Shown piece by piece: positions 16,079 to 58,286 of a DNA stretch of 64,000 nt; positions within the stretch are counted from its first letter, which is position 1, and every line of letters begins with the position of its first letter. Location: the NCBI GenBank assembly GCA_030323885.1, contig CM059186.1, forward strand, positions 149,518,407-149,582,406. The letters run 5' to 3'. Position numbers and translations under genes: made by a program. The DNA comes from Branchipolynoe longqiensis (Eukaryota; Annelida; Polychaeta; Phyllodocida; Polynoidae). The notes under the pieces are model-generated. The model was not told where the DNA came from. It searched no databases and worked only from the letters and a program-made list of their open reading frames with translations.

Positions 16079-19000
16079 CAAATTAAGATACATGTTTTGG
16101 TTTTGAAAAATAAATATTTCATCGGACCATGCAACTTTAACTTTTGCTCAATATTTCCACTGGGAGTGATAGCTAGAGTGTGCTCACGTCAGCTCGGCGG
16201 CGACTCACAGTGGGTTTGCCTGTCTGCGCGCAAACCCAAGTCACCCAGGCCACTGCCACCAGTGGAGTTGGGCGATAGTAGCATTTGGCGGATGAGCCAC
16301 TACCAGCACTCCATTAATAATATTAATATGATGTATTTGTATAGCACATATCCTCATGGAAAAGTCGAATTTTTAGACGTTTATTTTAAACTAATAATGG
16401 GAGGGTCGAGAAGTACTGTTTATGAAGGGATGAAATTCATGTTTGGTATGAGTAAAGAATTTGACCAAAAAAAGTGCTAGATTTCTGATAGTCGGTTTTT
16501 TCCTATTTTGTTGTGCCTCACTTTTCGGTGAACCACACTCCTGGCGCCACCTGGTGTCCTCTGCCTGTATTACCACTGACTCAGAACTGTCGCACCCTGT
16601 TCACATTTGTTTTGATATAAAATATATATATATCTATCTTAGATATTGGTGCATTAACAAGTGATTTGGGACAGCATATATAGAATAATCAGTGAATTTA
16701 CTACCTCCTCCTACTTTCAGAAACCCATCATAAAAGGAAGCCATTAATCAATTAGGTTAATCTCATGGCCTCAGTAGACTTGACCCTCATTCCAAGTACC
16801 TAGTCAGGTTCCAGGATGTCCAGTGGTAGTATTTATTGCTGGTAGTATAGCCTGGGTTGATATAAAGTTGCATGGAATTTTGTATTAAATAATTGTTACA
16901 GATTTGAATAAGAGTGATGTAATAATTATGTATATTATTATCCAGGAACAATCATTAGGTCAGCCCACATCACATCACATGCCAAGAAACAAATGATGGC
17001 GCAATGGTGGCATTAGTAGAAAAGAAGGTACCCAGGCTATATTTTATTTAGGTCATTCCACATCACGTGGTCATTGCGAGATGTCAATACTGGCCATAGC
17101 AAGAGGACTTTTGGAAAGCTTGTCGAAAGTATTTAGGGTTCTTTCAGCTCAAATTGCTTCAAAACTAGTCATTTTTCATCAAAATGAATCCGGACTAATG
17201 ATTAGTAGCTCATAATGATCAATTTGATATATTTATCTAAAAAATGAGACAAAAATTCAAACGCCATCGGACCATGCAACTTTAAATAAACGGTAGGCTA
17301 GAAATGTTGGCCAGCCAGAGGTTACTTTCTCAACCAATATCTATGTCTGTGTTATGTGTTACGGAGTGTCAAATAATATATATAGCATCATGCTATATAC
17401 AAACACATATGTCTATATAATAAATAACCTAAAATCAGAGGTGCTTTTAAATTTAATAAATGCTGGTTAAACTTAACTCCAGCAGATTAAAGAATGCACC
17501 TTGGAGTCAGCACTACAGCCCGAAGTGCACATCTTACCTGAACAAGATTAACTCTTTTAAAGTATTCAATAATCCTGTCTATATTTACTAATTTGGAAGA
17601 AAAAAGAGTATTTCTTACACCGGAGAATTGTTATGATTAGTAAATATCGCTTACCTTGTATCCGGGGGTGAGCTTGATTAGTTCTTTGAGAGGCACGTCG
17701 GTACCCATCACCCCCAGCAGATTGCCATCTTTTAACTGCAACATAACATGGTTCAGGAGTAGTTACTCCAGCAGCACTGTCTGAAGGCTTGTTTATAGAA
17801 ATAACCACAAGGAAGAGTTCAGACACAAAACCCTGTAAACACCAGTCAACAAACAGCTTTGCAAATTGTTCATGTTAGCATAACATGGGTAATTTGCGAC
17901 GGGGCGGAAGTGTAGGGCCTCAGCCAGGTTTCGACACTAACATCCCAACCTTCACCTGGCACTGAACTGACCTCCCCCCCCCCCCGATCCTGATATCACT
18001 GCCGACACTACCTCATGCTGCAACCTACACTTGGCCCTAGGCACTAAACTACCACCCCAATGCTGCCACCTACTGGCTCGACAGGCGGGCGGTGTCGTCA
18101 TGGACAGCTCAGAACTGCTCACTTGCCACATGGACACAAACACGCCAAGACCAGCTGACCATCAAATTGCCGCCCCCCACCCCTCAACTAACAACAGAGG
18201 GAACGCGGTAGGGTTGAGAGTACCGAGTGATTGCCTATTGTTTTATTTGATTACCTGATTATTTTCCTGATTAAATGAGAATTATACCACTTCTGTCTCA
18301 TCGTTAATTATAATCATTCTTGTGTTAATTCACAGAGCAAAGCAGCTGTGCGAATAATAATCATTCTTCTGCTAATTCGCAGAGGAAAGCAGCTCTTCGA
18401 ATAGCCCGGACCATTCGAAAATTGACATAAACATGAGAGTAAAACCTTCAGAATGTTCATTTTTGTATATACCCATGTTTTTTTGTTCACGGCTCCATAA
18501 CCATCTCATCACAAGAAAAGTGGAATTTGTGAGAATTAGAATTACCTTCAGGCAAAAATCTTTTATTTTAATTCTTCCATTTCTTTTTTATTCACGTGTA
18601 CAGGGTTTTGCGCCTGAACTCACAATCTTGGAATTTCAGGTATTAAGTTATATTATTCAAGTCCAGATGTATCATCAATCAATCAATAGTTCCGTCCTCT
18701 AGTCGAGGGTTGGATGCAATGGTTCTCCACTTGTCCCGATGGTGTGCTGTTCTGATAGACTGTGAATAATTCAAGCCTGTCCACTGTGAAATATTTGTAA
18801 ACCATGATGTTCTTGGTCTCCCTCTCCCTCTGCTGCCATTCACCTTCCCTTCCAACAATGTACAGTATATTGACCTCTGACGAATGATGTGGCCAAAATA
18901 AATAAGTTTCTTTGTCTGTATAGTGGCAAACAAGCATTTCTTATTTTTAATTTTTCTGAGAACTTCTTTGTTGGTGATCTTTGTCCATGATATTTTCATT

Positions 19001-20605
19001 AACCTTCGATAAGTCACTTCCATTAATCACCATTGCTTACTATGGGTAAATACTTGGTAGGTTCCCCTTCCTTTCCAAGGTGACTGGCCACTTACTCATC
19101 TTTGTCAGAGTATGCCCTGATGAGCCACATCATCTTGCTGTTACACCTTCAAAGCTATTGATCTTCTAACTCATCTGCTGCTCCAGTCTTCATGCACTTG
19201 AAGGGGTGACATCCCCTGACTACACCAACAAAGTTGATGTGCGCCGCACTTAGTTTAGGCCGACAGTTGAGTCGGTATGGCCACTGGTGTGCACTACCAA
19301 CTTCTGGCCTTCCCATAAATGGGACTAGCCGCACGGCAGCGGGGGTTTTAAATCAGAGTTTACCTTCTCCTAGATGAGCAGTCAGCCAAGATTGACAAGC
19401 CCCACCTGCCAGAAGCATCTGGTTTTGAGGCACCAGAGATCTGCCTTTGCCCCTTCTCCCGTCAGTAGAAACAGTTTCGCCTCGTGAAGGCCGGGAGTTG
19501 GACTTGGTTATCAGAGGCTATTTGATACGCATGCCATGAGAAAGTACTTTATAGGTAGTGAGAGCTTATCCTCACTATCACTTCCGGCAATAATAACCTT
19601 GGATCATAGGCTTCTATATTTGGGGGGGGGGAGATAATTTGCGAAATTATGTAGATTAATACACTTTAAAAGTAAAACTGAGCGCTTTCTGGGGCCACTA
19701 TATTGTATTTCCTTTTGAATTCACCCTAATTTCTCACTCTTAAATGAAGCCTACATTCTGCATTGTGGTTTTAAACACCAAACTTAGCAAGTTTTCCCTT
19801 CAAATATCTGCAGAGTTAACCCTTTAAGATAAAAGTCACTTCAAACTAAAAAAGCAAAGTCGATCATATCAATCAAAATATTGTCTAAAAAAAAAATATT
19901 TATCAGCAAAAAAGATGTTTCAGAAATTCTAAATTGGGTATGCAACTCGAATCATCGGTGTCATGGCTGAAATTACAGCAATAATATTGCCACTAACAAG
20001 TAAATAAAAACCCAAAACATTCTCAGAAAACGCGCACATAATTACCGTCTCATTTCTCCGATCAAAAACCGGCTGAGCGACGGAAGTCATCATTCGCAGG
20101 CCCTGGAGGAACAAGCGGAGGAAACGTCAGGAACAAAGTCTGTGACTAGAACGCGACGCTGAAAGCGCTGCGCAACGCCACTTTTCATGTGAGTTCTTAA
20201 AATAATGGATTTGTCAAAAAATCCACATTCGCACTAAAAGAACAAGGACAATTAACCAACAATAAGAAAACAAGAGGAGAACTCAAGGTATTATTATTTT
20301 TGTTTATGTGAGTATGAAGAGAACAAGCATAGTGATCAGATTATCAAGATAAGTAAATTTGATTGAAGATATGGGTAGCTCGATTTAAAAAGTAGAAATG
20401 GTGGTTTTATAGTGAATATCGATGTTGTTTGCGCTAACCGTTATGTCTTTTATACAACTATCCACAAGGCCTGACCAGTAGATGAATGTAGGAGTGTTAG
20501 TTATGGTGGAGCAAGCAGTGGTGGAGCGTCTGAAAGGATGAACTGTGGAAACAGTTCATAGTTAATTGGCTTCCGGATAACTATACTTATAGAATGGCTT
20601 ATGCA

Positions 20606-29588: not shown

Positions 29589-32500
29589 GACAGCGGGAGA
29601 GAAACAATATCAAAGTAAATAGCACAGGCTTCAAGGACATAACACTCTAGTGTGTAATAAAACTCCAGACATCTAGCCTAGGACTACTTGCAAGGGCCTG
29701 CAAGGTAACAGAAATATAAGAGGTATAATAATGAAACACAGGCTAGTATAGTAGGTAGGATGAAGGGGGACACATTGGTTGTGTGCGTGTGTGGACTGAA
29801 TTGGAGACTGACGTGAGAGGAGTACCCGTGATGGTAGTGGTGGTGGTGGTGGTGGTGGAGAGGGGAAGGGGGTTGAGGGGGATACCCCTGAAGGCAGAAG
29901 AAGAGCCGGAACGCAGGAGTAGGGGGGGGGGCGGTGAGATGGGGGCGGGGAGTGCTGGTCACCTTGTTCCCGGTAGGTGGGGAAAGTCACCTTACTCCCG
30001 CCCCTACCAGAGGGCGCTGCCGTCGCCCTCTATGTGTACACAGACGATGCCGGATACCGCGGGGACTTGTGGGGGTGGTGGTGGTGGGGGGGGCGGACAA
30101 ACCTGCGCGTCCCCGCTGGAGTCGCCCGACATGTAGACCGGTGTCCAGATGGTTCTGTTGGCCTTGGCTATGACCACCGAGTGACTGACAACGCGCACGT
30201 AGCGCTGAAAGTCATGCAACACGATATGAAGAGCAAAAAACACGCAACTTGGAGGTTTTTCATATGCGTCAGGATTTACACAAAACCGAGTCCCTTCTTT
30301 TTTTAACAACCTTTTATTTATTTTTTTATGTTTGTGTGATAATTTTGATTTTTTTCTCTTAAAAATTGTTTAATAATTAAACCAAAAATTAATCTGAATT
30401 TGTCAACTGCCAAATCTATAGAGAAATGGAATCGGTGCTCTTATCACATTGGAAACACCTGTTCTCATCTGATCAACGACGTTGAGCACCATTGAGCCTG
30501 ATCAGTCACGTGTGACGCGCGACCGCGTGGGAATGCGAGGTGCAAGAGACATCCTGATACAGGCTTATTATTATTATTAGCATCAGCCTGACAAATCGGC
30601 ACTTGATCAGTGAGTAAATTAACGTACGGACTCATTTTTCTTCTCCTGTCACATATGAAGACGAAAAGACGTAGGAAAAAGGTGAGCACGCCTTAACTAG
30701 TCGACTACTGGTGAGTGGCGGTACAGGTTTGTGTCATGACCCGGGCAGCAGCCAGGCCATGACATGCAAACAAAACTGACTGGAAACAAGACGCACATGT
30801 TTCCGGTTTGGTTAAAGGAAAAAAGACGCTAGTCCATAGGTCCTCCATGGCGCTGGTGGCGGCGGTTTGGTAATTTTTACTGGGGTTCTGTTTCCGTTGT
30901 ACCAGTCAAGCTGATATAGCAATCAATATACAGTGGAGACCGATATATGAGTCAACACAATATAGCAATATACAGTGCAGACCGATATATGAGTCAACTC
31001 AATATAGCGATATACAGTGTAGACCCACATTACAGTCGACACAATATAGTGATATACATTGCAGACCAATATACGAGTCCACTCAATATAGCGATATACA
31101 GTGTAGACCCATATAACAGTCAACACAATATAACAATATATGGTGTAGACCCATATATGAGTCAAAACAATATAGTGATATACAGTGTAGACCTGTCTAA
31201 CAGTCAACACAATATAGCAATGTACAGTGTAGACCCGCCTATCAGTCAACACAATATAGCAATATACAGTGCAGACCCATATATACGAGCCGACCCAATA
31301 TAGCGATATACAGCGTAGACCCACACACCAGTCAACACAATACAGCTCACCGGTCCCATAACATCATGAGATCAGAAGACTGTATGCAGGCAACAACAAA
31401 AGGGGTTTCACCGTCTTCGTCGCCATGGGGAGGACCTAGGGTTCAACTAAACATTCGTTGAGCGAAGGCGGAAGCAGATGTGGGCCAGAGGGCTGGCTGC
31501 TGGGCGGCGCCGGGCGTCCTGGTCCTGGAATCTCAGCCAATCACGACACACGCGGAAAGGAACGCTTTTTTTTTTTTTGGTTAAAGAAATGAACGCTTGG
31601 ATACAGGGACACAACAGTTTGATTGGCAAAAGAAGAAAGGAGTACATATTTGCCGCTATTCTCACACACAGTGTAGGAGGGGTGTGTCTTGCTTTCTTAC
31701 CGCTGCGTCTGAATATACACTCGTCCACGCAGTCGGGTAGCGACGTTTTATGACCATCGGCCGGCTGATTACATGGATGTATTCCTGGAAAGGGCAGGAG
31801 GCATTCAGCACATGGTTACGCCATGGTTATACCATGGTTACTGCATGATTACGCCATGATTACGCCATGGTTATACCATGGTTACTGCATGATTACACCA
31901 TGATTACACCATGGTTACTGCATAATAGTGCCGTGGTTAGGCCATGGTTAGGCCATGGTTACACCATGGTTACACCAGGGTTACACCATGGTTAGGCCAT
32001 TGATTATTGGCATGCTAACACCATGATTATGCCATGCTTATGGCATTATTACGCGATAATTACGCCATTGTTACTGACTTATAATGCCGTGGTTAGGCCA
32101 TGCTTAGGCCATAATTACGCCATGGTTATTTATATGCTAACACCAAGGTTATGCCATGGCTACAGCATTATTACGAAATGGTTAGGTCATGGTTAGGCCA
32201 TAGTTATAGCAGGTTATGCCATGACTACAAAATGGTTATACCCTAGCTACGACATGGTTACACCATGGCTATGACATGGTTACACCATGGCTATGAGATG
32301 GGTACACCATGGCTACACTATGAGTATACCACAGATATGCCATGATTGTACCATGACTACACCATAATTATACCATGACTGTGCCATGATTATACCATGA
32401 CTATGCCAGGATTATACCATGGCTACACGATGATTATACCATCACTATGCAATGATTATACCATGGCTATGCCATGATTATGCCACAGTTATACCATGGT

Positions 32501-34307
32501 TATGCCATGGTTATGCCATGATTATGCCATGTTCACGCCATGCTAATGCCACGGTTACTGCAGTTGGCACACGCTTACAGGCCCAGGCTTATTGCCGAAA
32601 GTGTTGATACTGACAGTTGTGGTAGGTAGGTCCCCTCTCCTCCACACGCTGGTTTTGGACTTCATTGCTAAGCGCTATTAAGGGGATCTATATATGTGTG
32701 TAGGCTAACACTACGTAGGGGGGAGGGGGTTCAGAGCTGAGTCCACTTAGAATAGGGATAGATAATCATAAAATTGTAAATAATAATGTTTGTGCATCGA
32801 CAACATTAGTGTGAAAATGAAAACAACAACAGTTTATGAGTTTGGTAGAATTGTCAACCCGATTAAATCAAATATTTAATTGAAATTAAAATTTCACCGG
32901 AGGGAGTAATTGTTGGGAGAAATGGTCGGATATGTTTTTACATCTGTGTCACAACTGAAGCCCAGATGTAGGTCAAGTCTGGCCGGATAACCCTCGCTGG
33001 ACAGGGACAGATGTGTTATCACTCCCCAATTATTGTGAGCGATAATAGAGATATTACAATTCATATATATTCAAATACATTATGTTTATAAATATATATA
33101 TATATATACATATATAGAGTATATATATATATTTACAGATATACTGTATACAGATATATACTCTATATATACATATACATATATACATATATATCAGGAA
33201 TGAAAGTGACCCATGACAAAACAAGCGGAAATTGGTGACAAGCGAATTTAAAATTGCACATACTTAAAAGGTTTTTGAGTTAGTTATTTTTGTACATAAA
33301 TGTATTAAGTTATTCATTATGATTATGTGTGCCTCGCCGAGAATATGGCCTATGCTGCCGAAACGGCGCAAAGCAACCATCAATCAATCAATCAATCGAT
33401 TATGTGTGCACATCAAGAGTCGGCAGTATCAGAATCTATTAATTTAACATATGCAGCAATAAATGCTGCACCAGCAACTGCGTACCACCCCTTGCTGTGC
33501 CGACGACCTCTCCTAGCCATACCCCATTGCCGGTATAGTGCCAAGAGCCACTGACCAGCACTAGGAGCCAGGAACAAAGAATACCGTTCAAATATAACAT
33601 TGTACTATTTAGGGCTTAGATTAAGATAAAACCTGTCAAATTATCATCCAAATATATAAGACATATCTCGTAAAAATGCAGATTTGTCAAATTTGCGGAA
33701 ATCCGCGAAATCGCTGATATATATACATATATAATCGCTGATATATATACATATATATAATCTATATATATAGATATATATCGAGATATATCGAGATATA
33801 CATATACTTATAAGTTATATACACATATATATATATATATAGATATGTTTTATATATAGACATATATATGCATACACATATATACATATAACGGGACCCG
33901 TGCTGCTTACAGCAGGTACCTTATATTCGGTCAAATGGCACTAGTGCCATACGAAATCACCAGAACTCACCAATTCCATTGCAAAATAGCTTCATACCCA
34001 CACTTGTGCAATACAAACCGAAACACATGATTGTACATACTTGGTCACGTGTCACAAGAATAAGAAGCCACCACTCCTTTCTTTCTAAAGCATTGTATTC
34101 TAATTTCAGATTAACAAACATGATGCGGGTGCACAAGGAGACTAGAGCGGCCTATTTTCTGTCGACGAATATAGCTAGAGTTTCAGTGGCTGGTAATTCT
34201 ACTTCAAGAGTATGAGTAGAAAGAGCTAATTTCTGCACAAGAGTCTTTATGATTGCAAGGCACTAACTACTCACAGAACATTGTTTCTTCCGTAGAATAT
34301 GAAGGCA

Positions 34308-34346
<39 letters not shown>

Positions 34347-37300
34347 CACACACATATATATATATATACATATACATATATATATAGATGTATATACATA
34401 TATACATAAATATACATATATATATGGCCATCATATTCTGTCTCTTTCTCTCTCTCTATATATATATATATTCTACACATATAGTTCTGTGAATGGTGGT
34501 GACATTCAATAAAAACAAATTTACTGTCAACACTTGTTAATTATTCAATCAATGAATCAAATCTTGTTATCCTGGGCCTCTGCCTCCGACTCTTTACATA
34601 CCATATTGCCAGAGTCAGCATGTATGTGTGTGCATACACAGAGGTAGCATGTATGTGTGTGCATACCAACACGCCGAGTGCACACAGGGGAGATGGATCA
34701 AACCAGGATCAGAGAGCGACGGAACATGTGAGATAACGATCTGTATCGTCGTTAGAATTGCAAGTCGGGAACTATTAACCAGCTGGTTAGGGACTAAGGT
34801 TACCAGTGGTGTACTCTGAGAACGCCGCCACAGCAGATCTTTGCCGAACTGCCTTTATATATGTATAACCAAACCTATGCTTGGAGAGTGAAAGGAAGCA
34901 CGAAAGTATCACAACACAGCTTCTGTAATTTTGTGTTTTTGTGTTTGCTATTTCTGTTTAGTTGGGTGTAGTGACTTCTGCTAAATGTTTAGATGGATAA
35001 TTACCTTACTGTTAATTTTCGTATTCAAATGCAAGTCAACTACGATACATTTCAGAATGATCAAGTTAGAACTCACTACCGAACGTATTGTATATTTTGG
35101 CGATTGGTTAACGTCTCTGAAATGATCTCCCTAATGTTGGAGGGCGTTAAGTTCAGAGTATATCACTGACCCACATCCATATCGGGCTCCTTTTGGGAAT
35201 TCTCTTAGTATTGCCAAGTTATTATCGTATGGAAACTATTCAAATTAGGTAAGCAGGTGAACACGAGATTGTAGAAATATCGTCGAATTATATTTTGAAT
35301 TGTATAAGAAGGGTAATTCATAAGGGCTATCTATTAGAATTAATTAATTATTATTATTATAATGTGGTAGGCTATATATAGCTCATATGGAAGGTTATGA
35401 CCTGGTAAAGGAGTGCACACATACCTGAACTTTCTCCTGCACATCGGCGAGAGTGCTGATAGGTGAGTAGTAACCTGGAACCAAGCAGAGCAACTCGCTG
35501 AGTAACACAAGTTAATCTATAAATAGCACAAGCAAGATGGCTTGGACTCAAAGACAATGGAAGTGGTGAGACATAGGTGGCGTCACTGGGGAATGACGAT
35601 ACATAGGTGGAGCCATCGGAGCACAGCAGTACACAGGTGGCACCACTAGATTATGGCAGTTCACATGTGATGCTTCTGGACATGATGGTTCACAGGTGCC
35701 ACCACCGGAGAATTGTAATACATAGGTGGCACCACTGAGGCATGCCGGTTCAGAGGTGGCAGCTCTGGAGCATGCAGACACATAGGTGGCGCCAATAGAG
35801 GATGTGGTTTCACAGGTGGCGTCACTGGAGGATGTGGTTTCACAGGTGGTGCCACTGGAGCATGTGGGTGCACAGGTGGTGCCACTGGAGAATGTAGGTT
35901 CACAGGTGGCGCCACTGGAGCGTGTGTGTTCACAGGTGGCACCATTAGAGCTTGTGGGTTCCCAGATGGCGCCACTAGAGTATGACGGTTTACAGGTGAT
36001 GCCATTGGAGCATGCTGGTACATAGGTGGCGCCACTGGGGCATGGCAATTCACAGGTGGTGCCACTGGCCCAACTGGAGTCAGTTAATCTAATTGGCTTT
36101 GTACCAAGTTGCAGCGGTTTCCTACACACAGTGCGGACTAGTGGTGTAGTGAGGTACACTCACATCCCAAGGTGAAATGCCACATACACAGGTAGGTATG
36201 GTCACGTTGATTGCATCACAGAGTGTGGGTTGACTAAGGGTTGGCACGCTAGCCCCAGACTGGAAGAAGTGTAGGTTTGAGTCCCACTCAATGCGCCATG
36301 CTTCCCATTTTTCCAAAGCAAACCCCATCACACTGGCAAGAGCTTGCTGGATAGGTGTCATTATTAATACTCATGTAATGCATTATGTTGCACCTAGGTT
36401 TACGAACAGCGCAGTAATTGACACTGACCACTAATTTCATGAACACTGCTAATAGGCTGGTTCGTTGATTGTTGGAATTTTACATCCTCGCAATATCCAA
36501 GGTCATATCAGGATGGGTATCAACTTGTGACAGTGCGCACTCATCTCGACTTAATAGTGCTGGCCCACTGGAAAATCAGGCTGCTGACACCATGACCCAC
36601 GCAATCACATTATCCTGACAATGAGCTAACATGTCCTATTAATGCCAGGCTAGGAAGCAACAAGTATCAATTTTATAAGTCATTGGTTTGACACGACTGG
36701 GGACCAAACTCCTGATCTCCCACATGCGAGGCATGTGCTTTACCGATTCTGCCATCGCGCCCGGTCCACTAATAGTGATAGGTGATAGTTGCCGCTCGCA
36801 TCAAGTGCTGCAGCCTCGTTTTCATATTATAGGCCTAAGTGTGCAGGGAGCATCTGAGGCTTTCTTCCCATCAGTGTTTGCAGGATGAATCCTAATAAGT
36901 ACTTGACCTTTGCTTTGATGGCTAGGATGTGCTCTCCCCTAGTACTATTATAGCTTACTACTGCGTTAATAGCCACTGGTGTAGTTTGGCTGGCAATTAT
37001 TGATTCGGCTTTCTATCGACAAAAGTGTCTAATGGTGAAAACAAGTCCATTCAGAGTTATCCATGATAGGCATTATAAATCTTCAATTCCAATAATCAAA
37101 TTTGATTTTTCGTAGAAGCTGACACATCTCCTATTATATAATGCCCCTACTCAATAGGAAATTAATAGACATCAACTGGAACACACGACAATGATTTATT
37201 TTACAGAAGACAGCTCAAATGGATTTGCCGGTTTTTGCACCTGAATCCTTCAATTGCATTAAGTGTATTTGAATTATTCTTGACAAAGAAGACACTTACC

Positions 37301-52300: not shown

Positions 52301-55300
52301 CTCTGAATGGTCTCTACTATGAATCACCTAGTACCAGTCAATTAAAATAAACACTAGTTGAAGAGGCATATATACAATTTGAATGTCTCTACAATGGATC
52401 TAACAACAGTCAATTAAAAGAAACAATAGTTTAATAGGTACTGAATACAGTGTGAAAATATCTACTATGGATCAATCAACATTCAATTAACACGACAGCT
52501 AAAGAACTTAATGCAATTTGCAAGGTCTCTACTATGGATCACTAGTCAAGTAAAATAAAGAACAGTTTTTACTGATCTTTTTATTTAATAACAGTTAAAG
52601 CAGCTCTTCTATGGACCAAGTCAATTAGAATAAAAAAACAGCCTAAGAAGTTCTTCTTAAAAGTTAAAGGGTTTATTCTCTGAATAAATAGTCGATTAAA
52701 ATAACAAACAGTTCAAGAAGTTTATTATGACAGTGTAGTGGTCTGCACTGACCTCTCAGGCAAGCAGCCGCAATACCGACATAGACATGGTAGGTGCCGT
52801 GGGTTACGATGTGTTGATATCAGGGAGCCTAGGTGGTGTAATGGTTAGCACACTGGCCCAGAATGCAAAGAGATGTGGGTTCGAGTCCCGCTCTAGGCTC
52901 AATATTTCCCATTTTCATCACCCCCACGACAATAGTTTAAGCATATCTATTATGAATCACCAGTCAATTACAATAGACAATAGCTTAAGGAGCCCTTTTT
53001 AAAACTCTAAGCCAGTAGGACTTTGCCAGTAGTGCTGCACCAGTTCTTCATGGTGCCTGATAAAGAGGAATACACTACTAACCTTTTTATTATCAGCATT
53101 TGCTTGAACCAAGGTACTATTGAAGCAGTCATCGACATAGGCGGGCTTGTCTGAAAACTGTAGCCAAAAGAACCATTGCGAAAGACAATTAAAGGCAGTT
53201 GGGTTATGAACATTTGTAAACGGATCCTGAGGTTTCCACAGGAATAAAATGCAAGGAATAAATTTAGAATTCTTCAAAATGGTACAGAAATAGTATGGCA
53301 GAAAACACAAGAATTTCCCGCCGAGGCTGACACAGTGTTTAGTGAGTAAGGCGGGCGATGGTGGCGCCACTAGTCATATTAGGAAATAATTATAATATTA
53401 TAGACAACTTCCATTATTTATACTCGCATTAAAAGTAACATTTGCATTACTAATTTTTCAATTGTGACCCAGTAGTCAACCTATGACAGACCACTGGCGC
53501 CAGCTGTGTACTTCGTTCCGGTTCAGTGACCTAGCTCGCACCAATACTGTCCTCAGTTCACGATCAATGACTACTTAATAAGGCGAACTGACCAAGCAGC
53601 AAGTTAATTAAACATTTATCCAACTCCATTAACTCTTCCCCAAATTGCTTTCTCTCAGTGATATAGCTTAGAAGCTAGCAATACTACCTATTCACCAGGC
53701 AGGGGGCGCACCAGATGCCTGTTCGCCCAGTGGGACCACACTATAAAGTTGCCATGAGTGCACACTGCCACAAGTCAGTACCCGTCCTGTTCTGACCTCA
53801 TATCTCGCTAGGACACAAAATCCCAACTAACAAATAAACAGCCAGGGTTCAAATGGTGGGGTTCAAATTCCATGGGATATGGGCAGGCAACTCATTCGGC
53901 CGTCCCGTCTGTACATTCAACAGGAACAAGCAGTGAGTGCCTCCCCAAGATCTGACCCGAGACTGTAGTGTGGAATTGATCAGGTTAATTAGGTCAGCGA
54001 TTTGCCTGCTTGCCTTGATAATGTTGAAGTAGTCGTCGTCGCTAAGAGTATCGAGGATCTTCTCGACAGTCGCCTTGGCAATTTCCATCCTCAGGCCTGT
54101 CATGCTTCCACTGGCATCCAGCAAGATCACGATGTCCTTGGGTGAAGTGGCAGCTTGGATATACCTGTAACCATGGTAACATAATGATTGATTGAAGCAC
54201 CGCAGGTAATGCAGCAACACAAACAAATATATATGCTGATTTTATTAAGATGAATATGTTCTTTTTGTTTGTATGTAGAGATGTTTAATGTTATTTATTT
54301 ATTCAGTGAATACAATCTAGTATCAGCGCCGTAGCACTGGTCTTCCGGTTGTAAGATAATTATGTTCACTAATAATGCACAAATGGGATTAAGCAGACAC
54401 ATGTATCAATAATCAGTCGGTATTTGTGGGTTAATTCGCCGAGAAAAATTACGATAAAGCTACGTCTGGTTGCCATTTGTGATCTTTACTCAAGATACCT
54501 GATCTTATAAGAAGCACTGATGGTCAGTGCAGCCTTAATAAACGGAACAAATTTAGTTCCCTCATCCATAATACAGATACAGAGAAAGAGTATGGTAAAA
54601 CTGCATGTGGATGCCATTTTGGATTTCTAAATAAGGTAACTGATCTTATAAGAATCAATGATGTTCAGTGAACCTTATTAATCAGAAATGATCTAGTCCC
54701 TTGATCAACAATCATTCAGTGCTAGTAAGTCCTTTTGCACCTTAATTAAATAGAAATATCTCGAAGATAAAATGTTCTAACTATTATTATTTAATGCTTA
54801 TTTACTGTCGATAAAATTTTAGGGGGAATCAATAGTCTTTTGTCAGTTCTCTATTATTATTAAAGTTGATCTAAACTCGATTACAAACAAAGATTTCTCA
54901 GAGAAGCAGGGATGACAAAATTGACCTCATCAGATCATATATGCAGAAGGTGTTGCTTGATTAGGTACCTAGAACCCATTTCAGCCAGTGCAATTATCCC
55001 AGCCGTATTTCAAACTAAGAACATATGTGAATAGATTTTATTTGTATTACATATAATTCTAACTCACATGAAATATACAAGAGACTTCGTTGTATTAACA
55101 CTCACACACATTTGTCAATAACATATGCATCAGCAAAACGTTTTAAAATAATTTTAAAAGACTCAAAGTAAATAAAGATTGATATATTCTGTTGGGTGAC
55201 ATTCTATTTTTCAATTCAACTAAAGTTCAAGATGATGGTTGGAGAAACAAAAGGTGATGACATGTATATAAAATATATATAAATATATAACGAGAAGTTG

Positions 55301-58286
55301 GAGTTAGAAAGATTAAATAGTTCTAACGTGACCTACCAGCCTCTGGTTCTACAATCATACATGTCAATCTTTTGTTGATCATAACTTTCAGTTCGCCAAT
55401 GCGTTCCTATGAAGAAAGGGGAAAACAAACATGGAGGGTAGGGTATACATACTGCACACTGGGTGGGTACTTGCAGACATGGGGTGGGGGTAGGGGTGTA
55501 TAGTTGGGATGGAGTGATGTCTTAGTCACGTCACCTGCTGTGGAGAGGTGTTGCATTAGAAAGTGATGAGGGTGGTTTCAGTGGGGAGCCACTGAACTAA
55601 ATAGTACAGTATTGGCTATTTGGACAATATAGTAAACGCAGGGTGTTGAAGCTCGTCCGTCCACATAGGGGAATCCTCATCCACATCACCTTCTACCGAA
55701 CAACCTAATGCCATTCACTTCACCTCACCACAGATGGGACGCAACTAGTGGCAGCGGAAAGTAACCCGCGTCTGAGGAAGTAAGTGCGAGCAAGCAATCA
55801 GAAAGCGCACTACATAGGTAATGCTTCTAATTGGAAGTGAGGAGGCGATTAATAGACGCGGAGCAAGGTGCGAATAGGGAGGCTGCTCATTTGAACCACT
55901 CTTGTATAGGCTTAGTTAGAGCGGTCAATTGCTGTAACATTGGTTTCAGTTGGAATTAGGTTAAGTGGATGAAGATCGAATGGTGGAGTTTAATTGGAGG
56001 CTCTAACCACTCATGCAAATGCTTCGAGACTGTGGTCGACTGTCCTGATATCAATTTCAATGGGAATTCAGGTCAAGCGGCTTAAACCCCGGTAGCATTT
56101 TTGTTTTTTTCACTCAGCGGACTGAACCCTGCTAATTCAGTTATGTGGAAATCTGATTGGTTCTCATCATTAGCTGGGAAGAGCAATGCTTTCGGAACAG
56201 ATCCAACGATCTCACCAATTCTAATATGTCATTAAAGAGTGGTCGGAACGAGAATCAAATGAAATCACTCCACCGTTACCTGAGTCACCTTGACGCGAGA
56301 TCTAAGCGCATCAGTTTTGGGAGGCCTTAGTCATCGGACATGATCACATGACTCGCTAGGTAAATGTGCAGCTAAGAATGCACCAATTTGATTCGCTAAG
56401 CTAATCCTGAGATGGTTCGCGAAGCTAATCATGCTAATAGGTATACCCAACAGGTGTACAAGGCTTCTACAACAGACATGTGCAGAGGACATACACTACT
56501 GGATGCAGGCAGGAGAGGGGAGAGGGTGAAAAGGAAAGGTGACCACTTACCAGCCACGTGTGCGACAGTCGTACATGTCGACACCAGCACCGGGCCACTG
56601 AATGCCTGGTTAGAACAGAGAGCGCTCAGCAGGTGGCAGCACCAGGTGGTGGAGAGAAGGGGCACTCAGCGTACGGTGTGCACACATAGTATCCCAGCAT
56701 GCATTGCAAGCGTCCACCCACTTTGAGAGTTTTATATTTGACGCGTGTTACTTTTATACCATGGGTACTTTTCGCTTCGCTTTGCTTCGCTTCGCTTCAC
56801 TTCACTTCACTTCATAGAATTGCATTTGTCATTAACAGTCTTTAGAATGGAATTGCACAGCGAATAGCTAAATACTTTGGTATGTGCGCAATAAATAGCG
56901 AAAGACATGATTTTACATAATTGTCAAAAACAAAAAAGTCCTCATGAGTTGCACCACATATTAGTATACGCTGATGGTGCTGCAGCGTGAAACAACGTAT
57001 TGGTTGGTTGTTGGAGTTTTGTGTCCTGGCACCATCTAAGGTCATATCAGGACAGGCACAACGTATTAGTATACACTTATAGCTACAGGAAAAATCCCGG
57101 AAATCAGCGAAATCGCGGAGATCTTCCATCCCTGATTATTGATAGTGCACATAACTACTCTGGGTGCATCTTTTTTTTTTTTTCTTCTTTTTTTTGGTGT
57201 CCATTAGTTGTTTAAGCAGGGGAAATTTCAGTCATAGACGACTGGTCTTCCTCATTCCACTGCTGGTCGATAGAAAGCCCGAGCCTACACTTTTACCGGC
57301 CCAAGGGATTTTTAACCTCCCACACCACATAGACATGGTATGAGAGCAACCGGCCTTTGATGACGCTGTAAGTTATACACAGCGGTGGAAATCCAAATTG
57401 GCAGAGCTGGGGCACGGGGAATCGAACCGCCGACCCTCAGATTAGGAGTCTGAGCTATAAAATAGTCAGACACTCTAACCACTCCGCCACAGAGAACGCC
57501 AGGCTCGGACTGATGGCCCTGCCACCGGTCTCATCTGTCCTTAACGGACATGCGTTCTTGTCATTCACACTGAGAATCTATTTTTTTTAGTCTAGGGCAT
57601 CAATATTCCCTATGCCAGCGAATATATCATCTCAACCCACCTCTCTTGTTTGTCTATGTTGTACTGTAGCCGGCCTTTGTACATAGATATATATATTCTA
57701 TGCAAATACTTATACAAATATGTATGTATATATGTATATCTTGTATATATGTATATATTGATAATACTATAACGCATATCAAGGTATTTTGGAATATATA
57801 GTTGAGGTGGTGGCGTATTACATATTTTCTCCAGTGCCCATGCGCAATGAAACAAACAAACATGGCGCTTGTTTTTGTTAGAGCCAAATCTGGGGCCATA
57901 ACCAAACACTCTCAACCCCCTAAGGATCCACCCCCCCTCCCCCTCTCCCCCCAAATAACCCCGAGCACCCGCCGAGCACCCGCCGAGCACCCCCCACCCC
58001 CTGCGCGCTGACCTCCCAACCCCATACTGCACCCTAACCCACGCGCACATATACTGCGCATGGCTGACAGCGCTTCACGGACGAGTGACCACGGCGGACA
58101 TGCTGAGTGAGGAGGTGGCGACACAGTGAAGCAGCACGGTGAGGGCATTAGAGGGTGAAATTAGAGGGCACGGCGGACGTGTGGTGAGAGGGCAACGTCT
58201 GCGGGGCGTGCAGACAGATAGCGCCCATACACACGCACATATATATATATATATGTCTGTAATAGATCTCTACATATATCAATATC

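Follow-up and report, generated by a model that had tools for sequence, protein, structure and literature searches.

Tandem-duplicated exons in the first dCache domain of an annelid alpha2delta calcium-channel subunit gene: candidate alternatives for a pocket-bearing segment

The ligand pocket of the calcium-channel alpha2delta proteins is the gabapentin/pregabalin site. In extracts of PMC9901441, the VWA domain is described as inserted into the first dCache domain, splitting the amino-acid-binding motif and leaving its Y...D part after the VWA. The same extracts report that a Phe at the position equivalent to Ala217 blocks bulky ligands in alpha2delta-3/4, that alpha2delta-3/4 proteins do not bind gabapentinoids, that one alpha2delta-1 splice variant has a lower gabapentin affinity, and that Trp or Phe alone has no effect on the surface expression of alpha2delta-1. 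Twelve residues are important for mirogabalin by Ala scan, according to an extract of PMC11308618.

In extracts of PMC9741552, ligand residues are rarely altered by human tandem-exon events, whose regions tend to avoid ligand sites, with 80.6% of the predicted ligand residues within such regions conserved. In an extract of PMC8797185, exons of Drosophila stj and CG4587 belong to a neuronal microexon programme. Among the literature matches listed, none of the titles and abstract openings describes exon duplication or mutually exclusive exons at the equivalent site of an alpha2delta gene, and the word CACNA2D does not occur in the main text of PMC9741552 or of PMC5740500; the literature was confined to open-licence papers, so this negative result is weak evidence of absence.

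Here we describe a window of 64,000 nucleotides from the polychaete Branchipolynoe longqiensis, located on contig C1 of the 1.85-Gb genome, whose minus strand holds an alpha2delta calcium-channel subunit gene of alpha2delta-3/4 type. Its sequence shows two neighboring copies of an exon, 9a and 9b, duplicated in tandem. We consider it probable that each can supply the same stretch of the first dCache domain in place of the other, and that using one rather than the other would alter the pocket that binds amino acids.

The host gene and its duplicated exons

The gene was assembled from 18 exons between 59731 and 6221, with the members of each pair counted singly, located from tblastn matches to a human probe and from their splice sites (Table 1). 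This exon set covers the window only; the C-terminal delta part and the membrane anchor lie beyond it. In a database protein search the nearest relatives of the assembled protein were annelid (Capitella 69%, Ridgeia 68%, Dimorphilus 63%); these three matches carry no subtype name, and the next are mostly named alpha-2/delta-3. The protein contains a VWA domain with the MIDAS DASGS (PF00092, 28.8 bits) and a dCache_1 amino-acid-binding motif, with YDCRTRGWY in exons 2 and 3, Y in both 9a and 9b, and D in exon 11. Exon 3 apparently uses a GC donor, AAG/GCAAGC (window 54008-54013).

At the position that carries Ala or Thr in the gabapentinoid-binding alpha2delta-1/2 proteins (Ala217 of PMC9901441, human 215 in the numbering used here), exon 1 encodes Phe, within GFF. 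Ligand sensing by this gene remains putative, as alpha2delta-3/4 proteins do not bind gabapentinoids, and small amino acids would be the likelier ligands of its pocket because that Phe occupies the position that blocks bulky ligands.

The sequence-only reading had recognized a further duplicated pair in the gene, and exons 2a and 2b are indeed present. They differ in the sequence before a common end, DMYDCRTRGW, and their motif residues are identical. Given their lengths and their passage from phase 1 to phase 2, the inclusion of both or neither would break the frame, and their exclusion is therefore frame-enforced. Database protein P0010 has a 2b-type sequence, identical at 16 of 24 residues by visual count, while sequence of the 2a type seems to be present in Capitella and P0006; P0010 appears to be transcript-like, since its 1172 amino acids lie on a 4695-base contig.

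Table 1. Features of the window gene and of the exon-9 copies in its paralogue. Positions are those of the window unless prefixed by C1.
Feature	Position	Strand	Description
Exon 1 (this numbering)	59600..59731	-	N-terminal half of dCache; Phe at the alpha2delta-3/4 bulky-ligand-blocking position
Exon 2a	56551..56605	-	55 nt, phase 1 to 2; GIQWPGAGVDMYDCRTRGW
Exon 2b	55337..55406	-	70 nt, phase 1 to 2; GTHWRTESYDQQKIDMYDCRTRGW
Exon 3	54014..54164	-	VWA, MIDAS DASGS; GC donor
Exon 8	35425..35474	-	Upstream exon common to 9a and 9b; GYYSPISTLADVQEKVQ
Exon 9a	31701..31784	-	28 codons, 84 nt, phase 0/0; ccag/GAA...GCG/gtaaga; EYIHVISRPMVIKRRYPTAWTSVYSDAA
9a codons Y-S-D	31707..31715	-	Aligned with human alpha2delta-1 Y450, D452
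TGCATG	30213..30218	-	14 nt upstream of the 9b acceptor; lead only
Exon 9b	30103..30204	-	34 codons, 102 nt, phase 0/0; tcag/CGC...CAG/gtttgt; RYVRVVSHSVVIAKANRTIWTPVYMSGDSSGDAQ
9b codons Y-M-S	30127..30135	-	Motif Tyr kept, Ser at the pocket Asp position (ungapped from Tyr)
9b donor gtttgt	30097..30102	-	5.6 bits
Exon 10	20046..20102	-	Downstream exon common to 9a and 9b; GLRMMTSVAQPVFDRRNET
Exon 11	17655..17735	-	LLGVMGTDVP; pocket Asp, equivalent of D491
Paralogue exon-9 copies	C1:88717291-88727559		RHVNLMTRPIGLGAVPPIQWTSTYTDIL, QYQSVTARALALNQSHTISWSPVHMDIFS, NYYRKMGYAMSHAKSKDITWSKVYNDAA, NYVPVLARPRALSNIKEASWTNVRYDR

Homology and divergence of exons 9a and 9b

The coordinates, strand, phase and translations given for 9a and 9b in the sequence-only reading all hold, and a recount returned the ten identities it had reported over 24 ungapped residues, VI, WT and VY among them. 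Exon 9a carries the canonical family sequence, xYxxVxSRPMVI...WTxVYxD, and 9b is a diverged copy, six residues longer, with a sequon NRT (30159-30151) and the tail MSGDSSGDAQ. Scored with a profile built from 33 distinct database segments (the segment pattern was present in 119 of 120 alpha2delta-3/4-type proteins), 9a reached 61.4 bits and 9b 38.1 bits, compared with 4.0 for the next best match in six frames of the window and 11.8 for the best of 20 shuffles; the homology of the two exons is far above chance. With a wider, database-only profile they scored 46.5 and 31.2 bits and were the only matches above 4 bits bounded by AG and GT on the strand of the gene. As in exclusive pairs, the two exons are thus neighbors, homologous and in the same phase.

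In their 24 core codons, 9a and 9b have 36 of 72 bases and 9 of 24 third positions in common, and of the ten identical residues just four are encoded by the same codon. Third positions look saturated yet coding similarity remains, so the duplication looks old and its coding content long kept. The Capitella exon shares 18 of 24 residues with 9a and 13 of 24 with 9b, with most of the latter in the ANxTIWTxVY half, in which 9a is the altered copy; the conserved RPM is lost in 9b, which has HSV in its place. The NRT sequon, which had been read as added by 9b, is real. Three of the 33 distinct segments (P0003 from Capitella, P0005 from Dimorphilus, and P0006) carry a sequon at the same place, and on this comparison the difference may reflect a loss in 9a instead of a gain in 9b.

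A targeted database search with 9b found no protein with a 9b-like segment, and no more than five candidates had words in common with it. This result, the missing RPM core and the quality of the splice donor could all be taken to mean that 9b is a fading relic, rarely or never spliced because of its weak donor, with the working protein all 9a. The donor, noted earlier as weak, is the weakest of the 17 GT donors in the gene, and the GC donor of exon 3 (4.5 bits) is the sole donor among the 18 exons to score below it. Furthermore, only P0087 from Lineus strays far from the canonical segment among the spiralian alpha2delta-3-type proteins read. We regard this explanation as unlikely, however, as the frame of 9b is open, its acceptor and donor are intact, its W/T/VY residues and ANxTIWT block are kept despite the apparent saturation of third positions, its identities to the Capitella exon are as numerous as given above, and four copies of the exon are retained in a sister gene. 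The weak donor likewise fits a low-default, regulated exon.

The exon-9 segment in the ligand pocket and in other animals

The assignment of these exons to a linker between the VWA and Cache domains proved to be wrong: the exon-9 segment belongs to the first dCache domain and includes residues of the ligand pocket. The assembled protein aligns with human alpha2delta-1 at E 2e-92, with exon 9 corresponding to residues 425-454. In this alignment three of the mirogabalin residues in the extract of PMC11308618 (Y450, D452, L454) fall in exon 9, and four (W223, Y236, R241, and W243, whose codon is split across exons 2 and 3) fall in exon 2, in the half of the pocket that precedes the VWA insertion; together the two duplicated exons cover seven of the twelve. 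Read ungapped from the Tyr, human positions 450 to 454 are Y-S-D-A-A in 9a and Y-M-S-G-D in 9b, and on this reading two of the three pocket residues of the exon differ between the copies. An Asp stands at the place of D452 in 116 of 119 alpha2delta-3/4-type proteins.

A real choice between the exons could instead tune the surface, glycosylation or partner binding of the protein through the NRT sequon and acidic tail of 9b, rather than its pocket. Both features are absent from 9a, and the tail lies where relatives vary in length, including vertebrate alpha2delta-3 entries that differ there by the presence or absence of a six-residue insert, LPQAQK. Against this, the same exon spans the three pocket residues described above, with two of them altered in 9b, and the motif Tyr itself is changed in copies of the sister gene. 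Of the alternatives we weighed, this one appears the least probable.

The sister gene is an alpha2delta-1/2-like paralogue (RRR motif) at C1:88.70-88.76 Mb. It contains four tandem copies of exon 9 between exons 8 and 10, each in phase 0/0 with AG and GT ends, where exon 10 was identified by the sequence GLGMMTTVTLPVYNRTED alone. With the database-only profile the copies scored 41.0, 33.6, 24.7, and 20.2 bits and were the sole bounded matches above 4 bits on that strand in 67 kb, and none of 200 shuffles reached 20.2 bits. In gene order, the position of the motif Tyr is occupied by Y, H, Y, and R. A second alpha2delta-3-like gene (C1:127.84 Mb) has one exon-9 copy within the 50 kb scanned. Further VWA/dCache genes occur at C7:92.56 Mb and C2:139.78 Mb, with pocket segments slightly nearer to alpha2delta-1 than to Cachd1.

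A database search with the sister gene returned 1105 proteins with E values of 1e-10 or lower, and our comparison concerns the 120 listed of these, 54 taken as spiralian (51 by name; P0123, P0134, and P0152 assumed) and 66 others. In the 55 readable proteins among the first 58 listed, the exon-9 segment is widely variable, between flanks that hardly differ. Identity was averaged over 24-residue stretches for 49 of the 54 spiralian alpha2delta-1/2 proteins, with P0133, P0135, P0171, P0178, and P0183 set aside from the alignment. Among these listed matches the mean identity of the segment was 0.34, below all 307 other stretches tested in the dCache/VWA region, for which the median was 0.66 and the minimum 0.40. 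For 14 chosen from the 66 listed non-spiralian proteins it was 0.62, with 252 of 303 stretches less conserved. In 21 chosen alpha2delta-3-type proteins it was of middling conservation, at 0.61 with 152 of 297 stretches lower, and the spiralian signal therefore concerns the sister gene. Over the whole spiralian alpha2delta-1/2 protein, 343 of 1062 stretches are less conserved than the segment, for example reference residues 604-627, so that it stands out only inside the dCache/VWA region.

Annotated isoforms of the abalone Haliotis cracherodii vary at the same place. Isoforms X4 and X5 differ in 22 of 1086 aligned columns, all within the exon-9 segment, and X2 carries two unlike copies of it one after the other. 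Among the 41 spiralian models with a single segment of up to 45 residues, Tyr and Asp stand at the canonical spacing in 18 by script (six were unscorable by script) and also, by eye, in P0123 and P0125, leaving 21 that lack one or both. Of the 66 non-spiralian proteins, 62 were extracted; Tyr and Asp were found in 58 by script, and the other four were mis-anchored and keep both by eye. The spread between species may be partly due to annotators choosing different copies. In the alpha2delta-3-type protein P0087 (Lineus longissimus isoform X3) the exon-9 segment is strongly diverged, of an ARPLAL type, and is possibly an alternative exon in a nemertean.

Use of the exon pair and comparison with known systems

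The inference of mutually exclusive use was upheld in part. Exons 9a and 9b form a tandem-duplicated pair fit for alternative use, as supported by their retained coding similarity, the four-exon paralogue and the abalone isoforms that differ only here; their mutual exclusion is putative. Frame-enforced exclusion is found in the exon 2 pair only. The lengths of 9a and 9b are both multiples of three, so double inclusion keeps the frame, and with an intron of 1496 nt between them and AG-GT ends on both, exclusion is not imposed by the frame, by crowding or by the class of the splice sites. A degenerate 11-nt tandem array (31811-32596) fills the intron before 9a until about 27 nt from its acceptor. 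The TGCATG before the 9b acceptor, which we take to be an Rbfox motif, is a lead only. The hexamer occurs 51 times in the sense orientation within the window, with a repeat at 8-10 kb contributing many of these, and it is not enriched near the exons of the gene.

These same properties, a shared phase 0, lengths divisible by three and an ample intron, would also allow 9b to be an optional cassette after 9a, adding 34 residues to the dCache segment. Of the 54 spiralian alpha2delta-1/2 models, 53 were extracted, and at least two segments stand in series in 11 of these, the abalone X2 included, which also speaks against strict exclusion. The models with two or three segments in series are P0135, P0143, P0145, P0148, P0149, P0153, P0163, P0164, P0169, P0178, and P0183, and they represent either real double inclusion or annotation joins. 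We nevertheless consider a cassette distinctly unlikely, as the other 42 models have one segment (P0124 a long single one, the remainder being the 41 described above), the 109 readable proteins among 120 of alpha2delta-3/4 type showed no second copy, and segments in series would duplicate a stretch with pocket residues.

In the model that we favor, in which 9a and 9b are alternatives for one segment, tandem exon duplication would have supplied different versions of the pocket-bearing part of dCache, and regulated splicing, with which the weak 9b donor is consistent, would pick one copy per mRNA. The choice of exon would then alter ligand binding or trafficking. More speculatively, and with considerable doubt, it is possible that spiralians possess a splice-coded repertoire of calcium-channel amino-acid pockets, built from exons duplicated on both sides of the VWA (2a/2b, 9a/9b, and the four sister copies), from which each neuron chooses. 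Some versions would be without the motif Tyr or Asp, and channel trafficking would respond to one or another extracellular amino acid, or to no amino acid at all. If the copies are used in vivo, splicing would determine the ligand sensitivity of calcium channels throughout a large clade of animals, and the natural swaps of the motif Tyr or Asp, in a protein otherwise identical, would provide a ready-made mutant series for asking how endogenous amino acids act at the pocket.

Among known proteins, alpha2delta-3 and alpha2delta-4 (CACNA2D3/4) share with the window gene the VWA with MIDAS inside dCache, the YDCRxRxWY motif and the Phe at the bulky-ligand-blocking position. In the vertebrate alpha2delta-3 entries, however, the variation apparent at this place is a small insert following the segment and no swap, whereas the window gene has two internal exon pairs. 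Splice regions A, B, and C of alpha2delta-1 likewise alter the dCache domains, although, as described in extracts of PMC9901441, they are cassette or alternative-acceptor insertions rather than homologous swaps on binding-motif residues. A mutually exclusive choice that switches ligand sensitivity, in this case to Ca2+, is found in exons 4a/4b of OGDH, a different protein in which exclusion operates through distant branch points (extract of PMC7969005); the AG-free stretches of 54 nt before 9a and 41 nt before 9b give no sign of such an arrangement. Finally, the mutually exclusive pairs of Cav alpha1 genes (CACNA1C, cacophony) described in extracts of PMC9741552 are also tandem homologous exons of the calcium-channel complex and, unlike 9a and 9b, sit in its pore subunit.
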